From NCBI RefSeq assembly GCF_004364315.1, contig NZ_SOBR01000005.1, forward strand, positions 62,001 through 126,000: a stretch of DNA of 64,000 nt. The letters run 5' to 3'. The position numbers were made by a program, and so were the translations under genes. A model generated the notes under the pieces. It was given only the letters and a program-made list of their open reading frames with translations, was not told the DNA's origin and did not search any database. Below, one piece after another: positions 26,871-32,930 of this stretch. The stretch is from Chromohalobacter marismortui (lineage in GTDB: Bacteria; Pseudomonadota; Gammaproteobacteria; Pseudomonadales; Halomonadaceae). Position 1 is the stretch's first letter, and each line of letters begins with the position of its first letter.

Positions 26871-29222
26871 ATGGCACACCCACTCAAGGATGACGAACTG
26901 CACGGCAAGCAGGGCAAACACGATGCACCCGGCGGCGGCTGGCAGTCGATCCGGGCCACCGAGACGCATTTCCTGCGCGAGAAAGTGCCCTTCAAGGGCA
27001 ACGCCTTGATGCTCAAGATCAATCAGCCCAAGGGCGGGTTCGAGTGCCCGAGTTGCGCCTGGCCCAATCCGGCCAAACCCGGCCCGGCGGAGTTCTGCGA
27101 GAACGGTGCCAAGGCAGTGGCGTGGGAAGCCACGGCGGCACGCACCACGCCGGAGTTCTTCGCCAGCCACACGGTTTCCGAGTTGCTCGACTGGTCGGAT
27201 CATGCCCTCGAGAAGCAGGGCCGCCTGACCCACCCGATGCGCTACAACGCCACCACGGACAAATACGACCCCATCGACTGGGAAACCGCCTATCGCGAGA
27301 TCGGCGAGCGCGTCGCGTCCTTTGACCCGACGCGCGTCGAACTCTACACCTCGGGACGCACCTCCAACGAGGCCGCCTTTCTATGGCAGCTCTACGGGCG
27401 GATGATCGGCACCCACAACTTCCCCGACTGCTCCAACATGTGCCACGAGACCACCACCGTGGCGCTGCCGCAGAGTATCGGCGTGGGCAAGGCGACCACC
27501 ACGCTGGAGGACTTCGAACACGCCGACTGCATCTTCCTGTTCGGCCAGAACGCCGGCACCAACAGTCCGCGCATGATGGGCCTGCTCCACGAGGCGCGCC
27601 TGCGTGGCGCCGAGGTCATCACCTTCAACCCGCTGCGCGAGCGGGCACTGGTCAAGTTCGCCAACCCCCAGACGCCCAGGGACATGCTCACCAATCACGG
27701 CGTGCCGATCAGCTCGCAGTATCATCAGGTGCGCATCGGCGGCGACATCGCCGCGATCCAGGGCATCTGCAAGCGCATCCTCGAGGTCGACGACGAAGCC
27801 CGCGACAAAGACGGTGAGCGCGTCATCGATCATGACTTCATCGATATGCACACCGAGGGCTTCGCGAGGTTTGCCGATCACTGCCGCAACCTGCCGTGGG
27901 AGCGTATCGAGCGCCACAGCGGTCTCGAACGAGCGGCGCTCGAGCAAGCCGCCGCGGCCTGGATGAAGGCCGAGCGGGTGATCTGCTGCTGGGGCATGGG
28001 CATCACCCAGCACATGCGTGGCGGCGACAATGTCCACCAGCTTCTCAACCTGCTGCTGATGGGTGGCCATATCGGCCGGCGCGGCGCCGGCGCCTGCCCG
28101 GTGCGCGGCCATTCCAACGTCCAGGGGGACCGTACCGTGGGCATCTTCCACAAGTCCGGCGAGGCGTTCCTGGCGAAGATGGACGAGATCTTCGGCATCG
28201 ACTGCCGTCGCGAACACGGCCACGACGTGGCGCTCTGCTGCGAGGCCATCCTGCGCGACGAGGTGGACGCCTTCCTCGGCATGGGCGGGAACTTCTTCCG
28301 CGCAATTTCGGATCAGGCCCGCGTCGCCGCCCGCGTCAAGCACATTCCGCTCACCGTGCAGATCGCCACCAAGCTCAACCGCAGCCACCTGATCCACGGC
28401 AAGGCGGCCTACCTGCTGCCGGCGCTGGCCCGCACCGAGAGGGACATTCAGGCCGGCGTCGAGCAGACCATCACCATCGAAGATGGCATGTGCAACGTGC
28501 AAGCCTCGACCGGCGCACTGGCGCCGGCGTCACCGCATTTACGGTCGGAAGTCGCCATCGTCGCCGGGCTAGCGCGTGCCACACTCACGCCCAATCCCAA
28601 GGTCGACTGGGAATGGCTCGCCGAAGATTACGCCCGCATCCGCGACAAGATCGAAGCGACCCAGCCGGACACCTTCTACGACTTCAATGCCCGGCTCGCC
28701 GCGACCGGGGTGTTCCATCTCGATATCGCCGCCCGCGATCGAATCTGGAACACCGATTCCGGCAAGGCGCACTTTCTTTTCCCCGAAGAGCACTTGACCG
28801 AGGATGAGTCCACGCCCGATGACACGCATTTTCAGTTGCTCTCGATCCGCGGCCATGACCAGTACAACACCACCGTGTATTCGTACGACGATCGCTACCG
28901 GGACATTTACGGCACCCGCATGGTGCTGATGATGAACCCCGCCGACATCGAGAAGCACCGTTTCGAGGCCGGCAACAAGGTCACGCTGAAAGCGGTGAGC
29001 GACGATGGCATCGAACGTCGGGTCTCGGGCTTCAAGATCATCGCCTATGACCTGCCGCAGAACTGCCTCGGTGCCTACTACCCTGAGGTCAACGATCTCA
29101 TCCCCGTCGGCAACCGGGACCAGCAGAGCAACACCATCGCCGGCAAGTCGATCCCGGTGACGCTCGCGTTGATGAGCACGCAGGAAGTGGAAGCGGAAAC
29201 CGGCCTGCTCGCCACAGGCTGA
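26871..29222 (+). CDS. FdhF/YdeP-family molybdopterin oxidoreductase
   Basis: 783 residues, the usual size for this family. Near the N-terminus the pair Cys59/Cys62 (ECPSCAWP) replaces the four-Cys iron-sulfur motif of true formate dehydrogenases. Cys191 in NMCHETTTVAL sits where formate dehydrogenases carry the Mo-ligating Cys or selenocysteine. bis-MGD binding motifs follow (FLFGQNAGTNSPRMM; GGHIGRRGAGACPVRGHSNVQGDRTVG) and the C-terminal molybdopterin dinucleotide domain begins near residue 650 (FQLLSIRGHDQYNTTVYSYDDRYR). E. coli YdeP is linked to acid resistance, but its reaction is unknown. It stands alone, between two terminators. Confidence 0.9.
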   Translation: MAHPLKDDELHGKQGKHDAPGGGWQSIRATETHFLREKVPFKGNALMLKINQPKGGFECPSCAWPNPAKPGPAEFCENGAKAVAWEATAARTTPEFFASHTVSELLDWSDHALEKQGRLTHPMRYNATTDKYDPIDWETAYREIGERVASFDPTRVELYTSGRTSNEAAFLWQLYGRMIGTHNFPDCSNMCHETTTVALPQSIGVGKATTTLEDFEHADCIFLFGQNAGTNSPRMMGLLHEARLRGAEVITFNPLRERALVKFANPQTPRDMLTNHGVPISSQYHQVRIGGDIAAIQGICKRILEVDDEARDKDGERVIDHDFIDMHTEGFARFADHCRNLPWERIERHSGLERAALEQAAAAWMKAERVICCWGMGITQHMRGGDNVHQLLNLLLMGGHIGRRGAGACPVRGHSNVQGDRTVGIFHKSGEAFLAKMDEIFGIDCRREHGHDVALCCEAILRDEVDAFLGMGGNFFRAISDQARVAARVKHIPLTVQIATKLNRSHLIHGKAAYLLPALARTERDIQAGVEQTITIEDGMCNVQASTGALAPASPHLRSEVAIVAGLARATLTPNPKVDWEWLAEDYARIRDKIEATQPDTFYDFNARLAATGVFHLDIAARDRIWNTDSGKAHFLFPEEHLTEDESTPDDTHFQLLSIRGHDQYNTTVYSYDDRYRDIYGTRMVLMMNPADIEKHRFEAGNKVTLKAVSDDGIERRVSGFKIIAYDLPQNCLGAYYPEVNDLIPVGNRDQQSNTIAGKSIPVTLALMSTQEVEAETGLLATG

Positions 29223-29233
29223 GCGCACCTAGA

Positions 29234-29284
29234 CCGCCACGTTCGAGGTCGCGACACCCCTCGAGCGTGGCGGCATGACGTTTT
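29234..29284 (+). terminator. Terminator after the YdeP-like gene
   Basis: A 15-bp stem (CCGCCACGTTCGAGG / CCTCGAGCGTGGCGG, one T-G pair, ten-base loop) followed shortly by GTTTT at 29280-29284. Confidence 0.85.
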
Positions 29285-29414
29285 CCATCATGCCGAGTGC
29301 AGAAAATTCCTGCCTCTCGCGCATCTTTTTCATCGTGACCCGATGCTATTTTTAAAACACTAAAAATACACTTTAGATTAAATCTGCAACACATTAGAAC
29401 CAATATAATCATTA

Positions 29415-29443
29415 TTGACATAAACTCTCACACCCCCTTAAAT
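29415..29443 (+). promoter_or_regulatory. Probable sigma-70 promoter of the pabBC-pabA-aurF operon
   Basis: TTGACA at 29415-29420, a 17-base spacer, then TTAAAT at 29438-29443, within about 130 bases of AT-rich DNA that contrasts with the GC-rich surroundings. An 11-bp dyad AGATTAAATCT lies just upstream at 29375-29385 and is a possible operator. Confidence 0.6.
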
Positions 29444-29475
29444 AAAAATATAATTAAATTCCAAGGGGCAGGGCG

Positions 29476-31365
29476 ATGCAGCAACTCAAAGAGCAACAAG
29501 ACGACAATGTATTCATACTTCTCGAAAACACGCGTTGCTCGAGCGGCCATCGTGCTTCGTTATTGTTCGAACGCCCTGAATACGAAGTCATCTGTTACCG
29601 CAACGACGCCCTGCAGGGTGCGCTGCGCGAGCTCGATGAGTTACGTGGGCAAGGCTATTATGTCTGCGGCTATCTCGCCTACGAAGCGGGTTACGCGCTT
29701 GCCGACAAGCCGGATTTCAAGTTTTGCAAGCGCGCCCATAGCGATACCCCACTCATGCATTTCTATGCGTTTCGCGATGTACGCCGCTTGTCGCAGCACC
29801 AGGCCAGCCGATTTCTCGAAGCGCACACACACGACACGACACCGGCGGCTCTTCGCCACCTGACTCTCAACGCACGACGCGAAGAATACCTCGATAATAT
29901 CGACAAGATAAAATCCTATATTCGCGAAGGCGATACTTACCAGGTCAATTACACACTTAAATATCGCTTCGAATACCAGGGTGCCCCCATCGCGCTGTAT
30001 CGCAAACTGCGCAGTCGCCAAAAAGTCGAGTTCGGCGGATTGCTCAATTTTCCCGAATACTCGGTACTCTCATTATCACCGGAACTCTTTCTGCGCAAGC
30101 AAGGCACGGCACTCGAATCCAAGCCCATGAAAGGCACCTTCCCGCGCGGCGCCTCGGTCGAAGAGGATACCGATATTCTCGACACGATGCGCCACGACAT
30201 GAAGACACGCTCCGAAAACGTGATGATCGTCGATTTGCTGCGCAACGACGTTAGCCGCGTCGCCTCGCCAGGCTCCGTGGCGGTCAAGAATCTGTTCGAG
30301 ATACAGACATTCGAGACACTGCATCAGATGATTTCCACGGTGACCGGCAGGATCGCTCCCGATGCCAGGATCGAGCATATCTTCCGCGAACTGTTTCCGT
30401 GCGGCTCGATTACCGGTGCGCCCAAGATACGTACGATGCAGATCATCGAAGAGCTGGAACGCGAACCGCGCGGCGTCTATACCGGCGCAATCGGCTACCT
30501 GACCCCTAACAACGATTTCTGTTTCAACGTGCCCATCCGCACCTGCATCGCATATGCCAACGGTCACGCGGAGATGGGCATTGGCGGCGGCGTGCTTCAT
30601 GAGTCCGACCCCGAGGCCGAATACGCGGAATGCCTGCTCAAGGCACGTTTCTTGAGCGGGCTCAATCAGGACCTGCAGCTCTTCGAAACGATGCGCTATT
30701 CCAACGCCGAGGCGCGCATCGAGCATCTCGAGAACCATCTGCAGCGTCTGACGCGCTCGGCGCACGATTTGCATTTCGCCTTCGAAGGGCCACGCGTGCG
30801 ACATGCGCTCGACGAGGCCATCGACGGACTCGGTCACGACACAAGGGTGCGCCTGTCCCTGGCCCATGATGGCCAGTTCGACATCGTCACCACGCCGCTA
30901 GGGCCCGAGAGCGAAGCGCCGTCGGCAGCGCAACTAGGCATGAGTACCCATATCATCGATCAGCATGCCTTCCTGCTGCATTACAAGACCAGCGCACGCG
31001 ATGTCTACGACAGCGAGTATCGGAGACATCAAGAGCAAGGCGATTACGACGTCGCCTTCCTCAATCGAGAAGGCCGCGTAACCGAAGCCAGCCGTCACAA
31101 CTTGTTCATCGAAAAGGATGGCATGCTGCTGACACCACCGCTCGACGAAGGCGTGCTTCCCGGCATCGCCCGCGAAACGCTCATCGCAGCGAGTTGCGAG
31201 CGCTGTTGCGAGCGCCCGATCACACCGCGGGATCTACTCGATGCCGACGCCATATGGCTCACCAACGCGGTGCGTGGCGTCGTTCCCGTCATGCTCAGCG
31301 AACAAGCCATACACACCCTGACTGCCTGGGTCGGCCAGGAGGCAACCTATGCTGTGTCTCATTGA
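29476..31365 (+). CDS. pabBC: Aminodeoxychorismate synthase I / aminodeoxychorismate lyase fusion (PabB-PabC)
   Basis: 629 residues in two parts. Residues 1 to about 395 are a chorismate-binding enzyme: DLLRNDVSRVASPGSVAV, LFPCGSITGAPKIRTMQIIEELE, and GGGVLHESDPEAEYAECLLKA. The motif SKPMKGTFPRG has Lys219 where aminodeoxychorismate synthases have Lys and anthranilate synthases have Ala, so the product is 4-amino-4-deoxychorismate. Residues from about 396 are a PLP-dependent lyase of the BCAT class IV fold, with the PLP Lys in HYKTSARDVYD and the GRVTEASRHNLF loop, releasing p-aminobenzoate and pyruvate. Such fusions are known in folate synthesis and in natural-product clusters. It starts a three-gene operon with pabA (17-base overlap) and an AurF-type oxygenase. 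Confidence 0.93.
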   Translation: MQQLKEQQDDNVFILLENTRCSSGHRASLLFERPEYEVICYRNDALQGALRELDELRGQGYYVCGYLAYEAGYALADKPDFKFCKRAHSDTPLMHFYAFRDVRRLSQHQASRFLEAHTHDTTPAALRHLTLNARREEYLDNIDKIKSYIREGDTYQVNYTLKYRFEYQGAPIALYRKLRSRQKVEFGGLLNFPEYSVLSLSPELFLRKQGTALESKPMKGTFPRGASVEEDTDILDTMRHDMKTRSENVMIVDLLRNDVSRVASPGSVAVKNLFEIQTFETLHQMISTVTGRIAPDARIEHIFRELFPCGSITGAPKIRTMQIIEELEREPRGVYTGAIGYLTPNNDFCFNVPIRTCIAYANGHAEMGIGGGVLHESDPEAEYAECLLKARFLSGLNQDLQLFETMRYSNAEARIEHLENHLQRLTRSAHDLHFAFEGPRVRHALDEAIDGLGHDTRVRLSLAHDGQFDIVTTPLGPESEAPSAAQLGMSTHIIDQHAFLLHYKTSARDVYDSEYRRHQEQGDYDVAFLNREGRVTEASRHNLFIEKDGMLLTPPLDEGVLPGIARETLIAASCERCCERPITPRDLLDADAIWLTNAVRGVVPVMLSEQAIHTLTAWVGQEATYAVSH

Positions 31366-31969
31366 TAACTACGATTCGTTTACTTACAACATCGTGTCCT
31401 ACCTCAACCAATTGGGTACTCAGCCCTGGATCGTCAAGAACGATGCGATGACGCTGGATGAGCTGGCAGACCACGCCATAGAGGGCATTCTGATCTCGCC
31501 GGGCCCCTGCACGCCATCGCAGTCCGGCATCACCCTCGAGGTCATCAAGGCCTACGCGGGCAAGGTCCCGATTCTGGGCATCTGTTTGGGCCATGAAGCG
31601 ATTGCCGAAGCATTCGGGGGACATATCGCACATGCACGCGAGGTCATGCACGGCAAGGTGTCACTCGTTAATCACGACGGCCGCGGCGTGTTCACCGGCG
31701 TCAGCCAACCGGTGCGCGTGACCCGCTACCACTCGCTGATCGTCACCCGCCAGTGCATGCCGGCCGACTTCGAGATCAGCGCCTGGACCTGTGACGCCGA
31801 GGGCAACATCGAGGACGTCATGGGCATTCGTCACCGCCACCTGGATATCGAAGGCGTGCAGTTTCATCCCGAGTCCATCCTCACCGAGCATGGCCATCTC
31901 ATGCTGGCGAACTTCCTCCGCCGACTCGAACGACATCACCCACCGCTAGAGCGAGTGGCTGGTTTCTAG
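31349..31969 (+). CDS. pabA: Glutamine amidotransferase subunit of aminodeoxychorismate synthase
   Basis: 206 residues of the class I glutamine amidotransferase fold: LIDNYDSFTYNIVSYL at the start, oxyanion region ISPGPCTPSQSG, nucleophile Cys79 in LGICLGHEAIAEAFGG, and the His-Glu pair in VQFHPESILTEHG. It supplies ammonia from glutamine to the PabB domain. PabA and TrpG are hard to separate by sequence; the partner gene decides for PabA. An AGGAGG site lies inside the end of pabBC, giving tight coupling. Confidence 0.93.
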   Translation: MLCLIDNYDSFTYNIVSYLNQLGTQPWIVKNDAMTLDELADHAIEGILISPGPCTPSQSGITLEVIKAYAGKVPILGICLGHEAIAEAFGGHIAHAREVMHGKVSLVNHDGRGVFTGVSQPVRVTRYHSLIVTRQCMPADFEISAWTCDAEGNIEDVMGIRHRHLDIEGVQFHPESILTEHGHLMLANFLRRLERHHPPLERVAGF

Positions 31970-31994
31970 ATAGCTCTTTCAAGGAAAGCGCCAC

Positions 31995-32930
31995 ATGTAC
32001 ACCACTACCGCCCACCCAACGAAGGCCAGCGAAAGCGAGATCCTCGCGCGCCTCACCGAGAGCTGGAACCAGCGCGTCGCGGTGCGCAAGACACGACTCG
32101 ATCTGAGCGAATATTACGACACCCGCGCGCCGGATTTTCCGCCATCGATGGTGCCCTTCTGGGACGATCCGCGTTTTCAGGCCATCGACGACGCCGACAA
32201 ACGCCGCATGCTGGCCGGCGCCTGGATCAACTACAACGAGAAGACGATCTTCGTCGAGGACAAGATCATCAACCCCATGTGCTCGCTGCTGCTGCAGGAT
32301 GCGTTGCCCGGCGTAGGCGATAGCGTCACCAAGAAGGCCATCGCCCAGACGCAGGTCGACGAGCAGTTCCATATCCTGATGTGTCTGGAAGTCTGCGACT
32401 GCGCGCGTCGCCAGCACCGCCTCCAGGACCTGCGCATTCCCACGCCGCTGCTCGAGCAACGCATGGAGACAGCGCTTTCCAAGGCGGACAACGAACGTGA
32501 GTTCGCACTGATCCGCATGGCCTACGCCACTGTGGCCGAGATGACCATTAACGTGTTTTTGAAACGTCTTTCACAGGATCGCAGCATCCAACCACTCAAC
32601 CGTCTGAACACCGAACTTCACCGCCAGGACGAAGCCTCGCATGCGGCCATTTTCGGTGAGCTCGCCCGTGCCGTTTACGAGCGTCTCGGGGCCGGACAGC
32701 AAGCCATCTTTCGGGCCCACTTGCTACGCGCCATCGACGACTTCATCGAACTCGACGTGGGATTCTGGCGCGCCATTCTCGACTACCTGGCGATTCCCGA
32801 ACGCGAGAGCATACTGCGCGACATGGCCTCGAAGAGCCGCACGAAGCGCTCACTTCGCGATTACAGCGCACTGGTCAAACTGTTGCGGCAGATCGGCATT
32901 CACGAGGGATCGAGCGTCGTTTTCCAATAA
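31995..32930 (+). CDS. AurF-like diiron arylamine N-oxygenase
   Basis: 311 residues, the length of the AurF family. All seven iron ligands of the Streptomyces p-aminobenzoate N-oxygenase AurF have counterparts with nearly the same spacing: Glu88, Glu123-x2-His126 (DEQFH), Glu182, His209, Glu213-x2-His216 (ELHRQDEASH). AurF and CmlI oxidise aryl amines to hydroxylamines, nitroso and nitro compounds with oxygen. Placed 25 bases after pabA, in an operon that makes p-aminobenzoate, the natural substrate is probably p-aminobenzoate, giving p-hydroxylamino- or p-nitrobenzoate. The ligand set is seen in the sequence, the family chemistry is established, and the substrate is inferred. The start has AAGGAAA. 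Convergent with cysI across a terminator. Confidence 0.88.
   Translation: MYTTTAHPTKASESEILARLTESWNQRVAVRKTRLDLSEYYDTRAPDFPPSMVPFWDDPRFQAIDDADKRRMLAGAWINYNEKTIFVEDKIINPMCSLLLQDALPGVGDSVTKKAIAQTQVDEQFHILMCLEVCDCARRQHRLQDLRIPTPLLEQRMETALSKADNEREFALIRMAYATVAEMTINVFLKRLSQDRSIQPLNRLNTELHRQDEASHAAIFGELARAVYERLGAGQQAIFRAHLLRAIDDFIELDVGFWRAILDYLAIPERESILRDMASKSRTKRSLRDYSALVKLLRQIGIHEGSSVVFQ

Follow-up and report, generated by a model that had tools for sequence, protein, structure and literature searches.

A 64,000-nucleotide stretch of Chromohalobacter marismortui DNA (NCBI RefSeq assembly GCF_004364315.1, contig NZ_SOBR01000005.1, positions 62,001 to 126,000 of the forward strand; hereafter the window) carries a three-gene operon, pabBC-pabA-aurF, that probably encodes a dedicated route from chorismate through p-aminobenzoate (PABA) to p-hydroxylamino- or p-nitrobenzoate, or to an azoxy dimer. 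The three genes, referred to below as the trio, form one real and tight operon at positions 29476-32930 of the window. As described in a first-pass annotation made from the sequence letters, pabBC and pabA overlap by 17 nucleotides and 25 nucleotides separate pabA from the oxygenase gene, and the spacing is similar in all seven other species measured (a 17-nucleotide overlap in 7/7; gaps of 24-27 nucleotides).

29476..31365, + strand: pabBC, aminodeoxychorismate synthase component I fused to aminodeoxychorismate lyase, 629 residues (PF00425, PF01063, TIGR00553, Lys219, Lys504)
31349..31969, + strand: pabA, glutamine amidotransferase subunit, 206 residues (PF00117, TIGR00566, Cys79-His173-Glu175)
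31995..32930, + strand: AurF-family diiron N-oxygenase, 311 residues (PF11583, phmmer, seven iron ligands, structure model)

Both parts of the first protein are recognized by Pfam (Chorismate_bind, PF00425, E-value 2.8e-81; Aminotran_4, PF01063, 1.6e-41), and its 380 bits on the curated NCBIfam model TIGR00553 for pabB pass the cut-off of 328. Lys219 (PMKGT) aligns with the Lys of the genome's folate PabB (PIKGT) and with an Ala in its TrpE (PIAGT), which together with the TIGR00553 score bears out the original identification of a PabB, not a TrpE, fused to PabC. The lyase domain carries Lys504 (LLHYKTS), which we take to be the lysine that binds pyridoxal phosphate. The second gene is PabA, as had been proposed, on the strength of the GATase domain (PF00117, 1.1e-55), 234 bits on TIGR00566 trpG_papA against a cut-off of 121, and Cys79, His173 and Glu175, presumably the catalytic triad. 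Because family membership is strong and the catalytic residues are intact, the prediction that PabA and PabBC lead to PABA is near certain: PabA would free ammonia from glutamine, the PabB domain would add it to chorismate to give 4-amino-4-deoxychorismate, and the fused PabC domain would then eliminate pyruvate to yield PABA.

The trio is present and syntenic in all ten Chromohalobacter genomes searched, and is therefore not a chance arrangement; in all ten it is flanked by hbpS-like and cysI-like genes (the latter named by eye). The ratio of nonsynonymous to synonymous substitution rates is 0.10-0.12 for pabBC and 0.08-0.13 for pabA (seven comparisons each) and 0.08-0.18 for aurF (eight comparisons, C. 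israelensis being highest), and the operon is under purifying selection where measured. A scan of named genomes with two short patterns, which returned 104 stretches and 30 loci and may have missed further trios, found eight loci with oxygenases 84-92% identical to that of the window, every one in Chromohalobacter (C. beijerinckii, C. moromii, C. sarecensis, C. nigrandesensis, C. canadensis, C. israelensis and two further Chromohalobacter sp.). Across the family, 19 of 275 genomes match PF11583 at an E-value of 0.001, and 11 exceed the cut-off, namely the ten Chromohalobacter genomes and a single further one with an oxygenase of 30% identity in a different gene context. The matches in the 8 further family genomes are weak and fall below the cut-off. 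In another genome of the family (G237, L035:6062-11900) an AurF-family gene lies in another cluster, among genes that resemble, by eye, PanB, aminotransferase and desaturase genes.

Whether a second folate set exists in the same genome (G000; 3.55 Mb in 23 contigs) had been raised as a check on the first-pass annotation, and a separate pabB and pabC were found. A trpE-trpG pair lies on contig C3, a 461-residue PabB on C17, and a PabC on C1 between fabF-like and mltG-like open reading frames (ORFs; both named by eye), with family scores above their cut-offs (trpE_most 559 against 518, pabB 372 against 328, pabC_Proteo 214 against 177); the remaining one of the three Aminotran_4 proteins is a branched-chain transaminase. 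Besides the trio, each of the ten genus genomes contains a trpE-like frame and a folate-type pabB (81-89% identity to the G000 gene), the family models for the separate pabB and trpE having been applied in G000 only. Since trpE-trpG, the folate pabB and pabC lie elsewhere in the genome, the trio is, as judged from gene content, an extra PABA gene set and not the folate set, and a folate-only role was dropped as the principal explanation on the same grounds. The pabBC of the trio is interrupted near codon 215 in C. israelensis DSM 6768 by an element that carries an IS30-family transposase gene (L047:4987-5991), and the folate pabB of that strain is an open frame of 448 residues, the one stop flagged by the genome search being the end of the frame. 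Because the one gene is interrupted and the other open, the trio of this species is, on the sequence, not its folate supply. DSM 6768 is a natural trio-defective strain.

The same three-gene order, the recurrence of which had also been proposed as a check, was found outside the genus in Acidithiobacillus ferrivorans and on a plasmid of Burkholderia glumae. The A. ferrivorans trio (44, 56 and 43% identity; 17-nucleotide overlap, 44-nucleotide gap) is followed on the same strand, after 92 and 29 nucleotides, by an EamA transporter and a flavin mononucleotide (FMN)-reductase-type protein. That of B. glumae (42, 55 and 45% identity; 13-nucleotide overlap, 9-nucleotide gap) stands directly before a hybrid non-ribosomal peptide synthetase-polyketide synthase (NRPS-PKS), the first adenylating domain of which is nearest to fatty acyl-AMP ligase (FAAL)-type enzymes and the second to ordinary amino-acid NRPS domains; this neighbourhood comes from one of the two B. 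glumae plasmid records in which the oxygenase occurs. The block behaves as a reusable module, alone in Chromohalobacter and with other partners in A. ferrivorans and B. glumae. N-oxygenation of PABA by the predicted product of the third gene is likely, since that gene has stayed next to pabBC-pabA in three lineages. A. ferrivorans is the sole other species with a trio among the 30 loci of the named-genome scan, and relatives of the oxygenase are rare at an E-value of 1e-20 (2 of 369 genomes of the class and 3 of 398 of the phylum, both counts including the query genome). At 1e-10 relatives occur in 11 of 72,556 plasmid records, the best 47% identical; none was found in viral contigs scanned with two short patterns or in 50,697 phage records, and a mobile or viral origin of the trio was rejected on these results. 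An ORF that resembles a tyrosine recombinase by eye lies about 1.7 kb upstream of the A. ferrivorans trio (L048:2504-3700), a possible sign of a genomic island, and insertion-element genes lie upstream of the trio and NRPS-PKS on the B. glumae plasmid (L071:12485-30855).

The third gene product is an AurF-family diiron oxygenase. It scores 132.7 bits on PF11583 (E-value 1.9e-38, cut-off 29.6), and phmmer matches it to CmlI (5e-47) and AurF (4e-44); on the AurF exception model NF045603 (4-aminobenzoate N-oxygenase) it reaches 169 bits where the cut-off is 620. An AlphaFold2 model from a 19-row alignment has a mean predicted local distance difference test score of 85.1, and its nine structure matches at an E-value of 0.001 or below are CmlI and AurF chains only (2e-13 to 7e-17; query template modelling scores 0.80-0.84). 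Among the best 50 of 673 matches, those that come next are mostly of ribonucleotide reductase R2 type, with query scores of at most 0.53 and E-values above 0.001. All seven AurF iron ligands (E88, E123, H126, E182, H209, E213 and H216) are present at the positions first assigned and line up with the crystal chains of AurF and CmlI. According to excerpts of PMC9478400, the hydroxylamine oxidase DnfA has an identical set of seven ligands, down to the residue numbers. Since DnfA shares all seven, they do not prove PABA chemistry, and their use as proof of substrate was rejected. The original argument from ligands and likeness to AurF thus stands as far as an AurF-family enzyme is concerned, and falls short of securing the substrate, the enzyme belonging to a clade of its own. 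Sequence by itself does not fix the substrate; most of the case for PABA rests on the operon.

In a tree of 37 oxygenases the Chromohalobacter enzymes group with those of B. stagnalis and B. glumae (support 99/97), apart from AurF, CmlI and two further loci (L049 and L072) and from a 23-row clade (100/100) that we call DnfA/TsnB7-like from its gene neighbours, the tree holding no DnfA or TsnB7 sequence. Each frame in this tree begins at the first Met or Val that follows a stop, which makes some N-termini too long; for AurF and CmlI the tree uses the aligned parts, L035 has a very long branch, and L039 and L061 are identical. The possibility raised at the outset, that the oxygenase groups with a family of other chemistry, is answered in part: it lies outside the DnfA-like clade, and outside the AurF/CmlI group as well. 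A DnfC-like amidotransferase lies downstream in 16 of 21 DnfA/TsnB7-like loci (15 of 20 with L039 and L061 counted once; L137, a partial match at a locus edge, and L138, a short locus with none, were left out of the count), and none was found in the A. ferrivorans, B. glumae and B. stagnalis loci, the amidotransferase of the trio itself being of PabA/TrpG type. Four Planctomycetota metagenome-assembled genomes (L050, L055, L059 and L066) encode DnfA-like oxygenases with no DnfC-like amidotransferase match in the stretches examined.

A series of observations weighs against a dedicated PABA N-oxygenation pathway. At an E-value of 1e-15 G000 has just two PabA/TrpG-type proteins, TrpG and the PabA of the trio, and for this reason the latter could also serve the folate PabB. 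The closest oxygenase outside the genus (B. stagnalis, 47%) belongs to an acyl carrier protein (ACP)/ketosynthase cluster in which no pab gene occurs in the 31 kb seen. In a PabBC tree of 30 rows the trio proteins share a 100/99 clade with PabBC or PabB proteins of other genomes without aurF; they form no clade of their own, and their relatedness does not show a cassette assembled once. That tree omits L104 (a fusion split over frames), L120 and L122 (internal stops), and L126-L132 and L134-L136 (only the PabB part matched), and the placement of the long-branched L121 and L106 is doubtful. One genome represented in the 100/99 clade, G366, has pabBC and pabA tightly spaced, and the 9 kb seen there contain no AurF-like ORF. 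This pair and the B. stagnalis cluster, together with the diverse chemistry of PF11583 enzymes, would fit an operon that merely boosts PABA for folate or another use, with an oxygenase that acts on an unrelated amine. We consider this distinctly unlikely given the separate pabB, pabC and trpE-trpG genes, the cohesion of the three genes in three lineages, and the state of the two pabB genes in C. israelensis. The B. stagnalis cluster (plas2, L070:2697-20852) contains ACP, ketosynthase and adenosine monophosphate (AMP)-ligase genes with the AurF relative and an iron-containing redox enzyme, and no annotated pab genes.

Other points on the same side of the balance come from the oxygenase itself. 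The A. ferrivorans enzyme joins the query clade weakly (88/49), the spacing of the iron ligands in the query is that of the DnfA-like group, and Lys83, Cys96 and Arg203 likewise agree with that group. In favour of the pathway, Met129, Ala181 and Asn186 of the query, A. ferrivorans and B. glumae agree with the AurF/CmlI group and not the DnfA-like one; of the nearly fixed group-specific columns, compared without B. stagnalis, L035, L137 and L138, three side with AurF/CmlI, three with the DnfA-like group and four with neither, and the identity of the query to either side is about 27-33% in the rows compared. Lys83 had been considered as a carboxylate-binding residue in place of the carboxylate-binding Arg96 of AurF, and was dropped since the DnfA-like group also has Lys here. 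In the dirammox (DnfA/DnfC) and trichostatin (TsnB7/TsnB9) systems, as in the trio, the oxygenase is encoded with a class I amidotransferase, and DnfA has the same ligand set; DnfA/TsnB7-like loci differ in having another type of amidotransferase, no pabB match and a separate clade. Because 16/21 such loci have a DnfC-like amidotransferase next to the oxygenase, the partnership is a theme of the family.

One mechanism that this theme suggests is a hydroxylamine relay, in which the oxygenase would N-hydroxylate the glutamine amide, as TsnB7 does, PabA would deliver hydroxylamine in place of ammonia, and PabBC would make p-hydroxylaminobenzoate directly. We know of no pathway in which a chorismate enzyme reacts with hydroxylamine as nucleophile. 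Glutamine-hydroxamate chemistry has precedent in that TsnB6/7 oxidise glutamine to the hydroxamate, TsnB9 transfers it and DnfC cleaves it, according to parts of PMC13418202 and PMC11160463, and the DnfA-like residues and ligand spacing of the query are in keeping with it. The relay is nevertheless quite improbable, as the PabA of the trio is of the ordinary PabA/TrpG type and required by PabB anyway, the oxygenase lies outside the 100/100 clade, the operon has no TsnB6/DnfB-type accessory subunit, and Asn186 is as in the arylamine oxygenases. It is more improbable still, to the point of being hardly credible, that the third gene lies next to the pab genes by chance and encodes a detoxifying enzyme or a hydroxylamine oxidase like DnfA: the seven ligands shared with DnfA (PMC9478400, in part) would allow it, and against it stand the conserved operon spacing and purifying selection, the gene order kept in three lineages, and a tree, itself without DnfA, in which the oxygenase is not part of the DnfA-like clade.

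In the favoured pathway, to judge from gene linkage and family, the diiron enzyme would use O2 to convert the amine of PABA to p-hydroxylaminobenzoate, perhaps continuing to the nitroso or nitro acid; as happens when azoxymycin is formed, coupling of the nitroso and hydroxylamine forms could give azoxybenzene-4,4'-dicarboxylate. As no assembly line follows the trio in Chromohalobacter, its product there would most likely be a small acid in free form, either secreted or consumed elsewhere in the cell. No NRPS or PKS gene was seen by eye near the trio, among ORFs of at least 80 residues at about 25-38 kb and at least 300 residues across the rest of the window. Condensation domains occur in three of the ten genus genomes, including G000 (contig C2), and a type I PKS marker exceeds its cut-off in one, two more having weak matches with stops; six of the ten have neither marker above cut-off genome-wide, yet have the trio. 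The first-pass annotation had reasoned from the absence of a nearby assembly line to a free product. Its premise holds at the locus and in these six genomes; its generality does not, given the NRPS locus elsewhere in G000 and the B. glumae block, which, because it precedes an NRPS-PKS, means that the block alone does not imply a free product.

It is conceivable, though unlikely, that the N-oxygenated aminobenzoate is not the end product and is conjugated or degraded by enzymes encoded elsewhere, for example by a hydroxylaminobenzoate lyase leading to protocatechuate or by the NRPS of contig C2. The Chromohalobacter operon has no transporter, regulator or reductase, which also counts against the favoured pathway; on contig C2 of G000 a TonB-receptor-like gene (by eye) lies close to two NRPS genes, and the B. 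glumae trio is joined to an NRPS-PKS with a FAAL-like first adenylating domain. Set against this, condensation domains (3/10) and the type I PKS marker (1/10) are far less widespread in the genus than the trio (10/10). The NRPS genes of C2:51692-69055 (L078, L079) are large, have five condensation domains and lie near TonB-receptor-like and ATP-binding cassette (ABC)-type genes (by eye), and are probably for a siderophore. In another genome (G008:C11:646781-647398) a fourth, partial chorismate-enzyme match (32%) lies about 3 kb from the condensation-domain match of that genome.

Comparison with named systems places the favoured pathway among known enzymes. AurF (aureothin, Streptomyces thioluteus) and CmlI (chloramphenicol) share with the query the fold, the seven ligands and PF11583, at 33 and 29% identity respectively, and the query has 169 bits where the AurF model demands 620. 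A PABA-type synthase is encoded within the AurF and CmlI clusters themselves; free PABA is the substrate of AurF, and the products enter a PKS or amino-acid scaffold, whereas in Chromohalobacter no such genes follow. In Streptomyces celluloflavus (L049), presumably a benzastatin-type (Bez) cluster, the oxygenase adjoins a PabA-PabB gene, like the trio; it differs in its cytochrome P450-, prenyltransferase- and acetyltransferase-like genes (by eye) and in an oxygenase only 32-34% identical. AzoC (azoxymycin), set beside the query by description only, is likewise a diiron N-oxygenase and differs in acting on another arylamine from a larger cluster. The pabBC-pabA operon of G366 has the same two proteins, tightly spaced, and differs in its lack of an adjacent AurF-like ORF, the trio genome having in addition a separate folate set. 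In excerpts of PMC6783550, in part citing other work, AurF proceeds to the nitro group, BezJ takes the PABA amine to the hydroxylamine, and AzoC forms a nitroso product that couples spontaneously to the azoxy compound. The gene content of the operon does not tell which oxidation state results, and nitro, hydroxylamine and nitroso all have precedents in these enzymes.

No stand-alone pab-aurF operon and no PABA N-oxidation in Chromohalobacter appeared among the titles and abstract openings returned by searches of open-licence PubMed Central (PMC) papers. The trio is a new arrangement of known enzyme families, and its product is likely of the class proposed. AurF-type N-oxygenases are mainly familiar as one step of larger clusters; a stand-alone route of three genes, retained across a genus, would amount to a very simple way of encoding the synthesis of a hydroxylamino- or nitroaromatic acid, and this in a halophile. 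It would be a ready module for making such compounds, and it gives a clean test of the split in the AurF family between arylamine chemistry and amide or hydroxylamine chemistry.

Alignment of the regions upstream of the trio adds a further feature.

29400..29443, + strand: conserved element and likely sigma-70 promoter, CCAATATAATCA, then TTGACA (29415), 17 nucleotides and TTAAAT (from alignment)

The CCAATATAA block and TTGACA are invariant in 9/9 aligned upstream regions, and TTAAAT is found in eight of the nine, with TTCAAT in the remaining one. A consensus scanner did not list the TTGACA/TTAAAT pair and lists another at 29427-29454, and promoter-like sites show no excess over shuffled sequences (2 against 1.5); 29400..29443 may be put forward as a candidate promoter from its conservation. 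The gap in which it lies (29223-29475) is AT-rich (44% G+C) and contains conserved blocks. Directly upstream, the window has an FdhF/YdeP-family oxidoreductase gene (26871-29222, 905 bits); a ydeP-like gene precedes the trio in six of the ten genus genomes and is missing at the site in four. The pabBC gene itself has 57.5% G+C, compared with 63-67% in its neighbours, perhaps a sign of acquisition.

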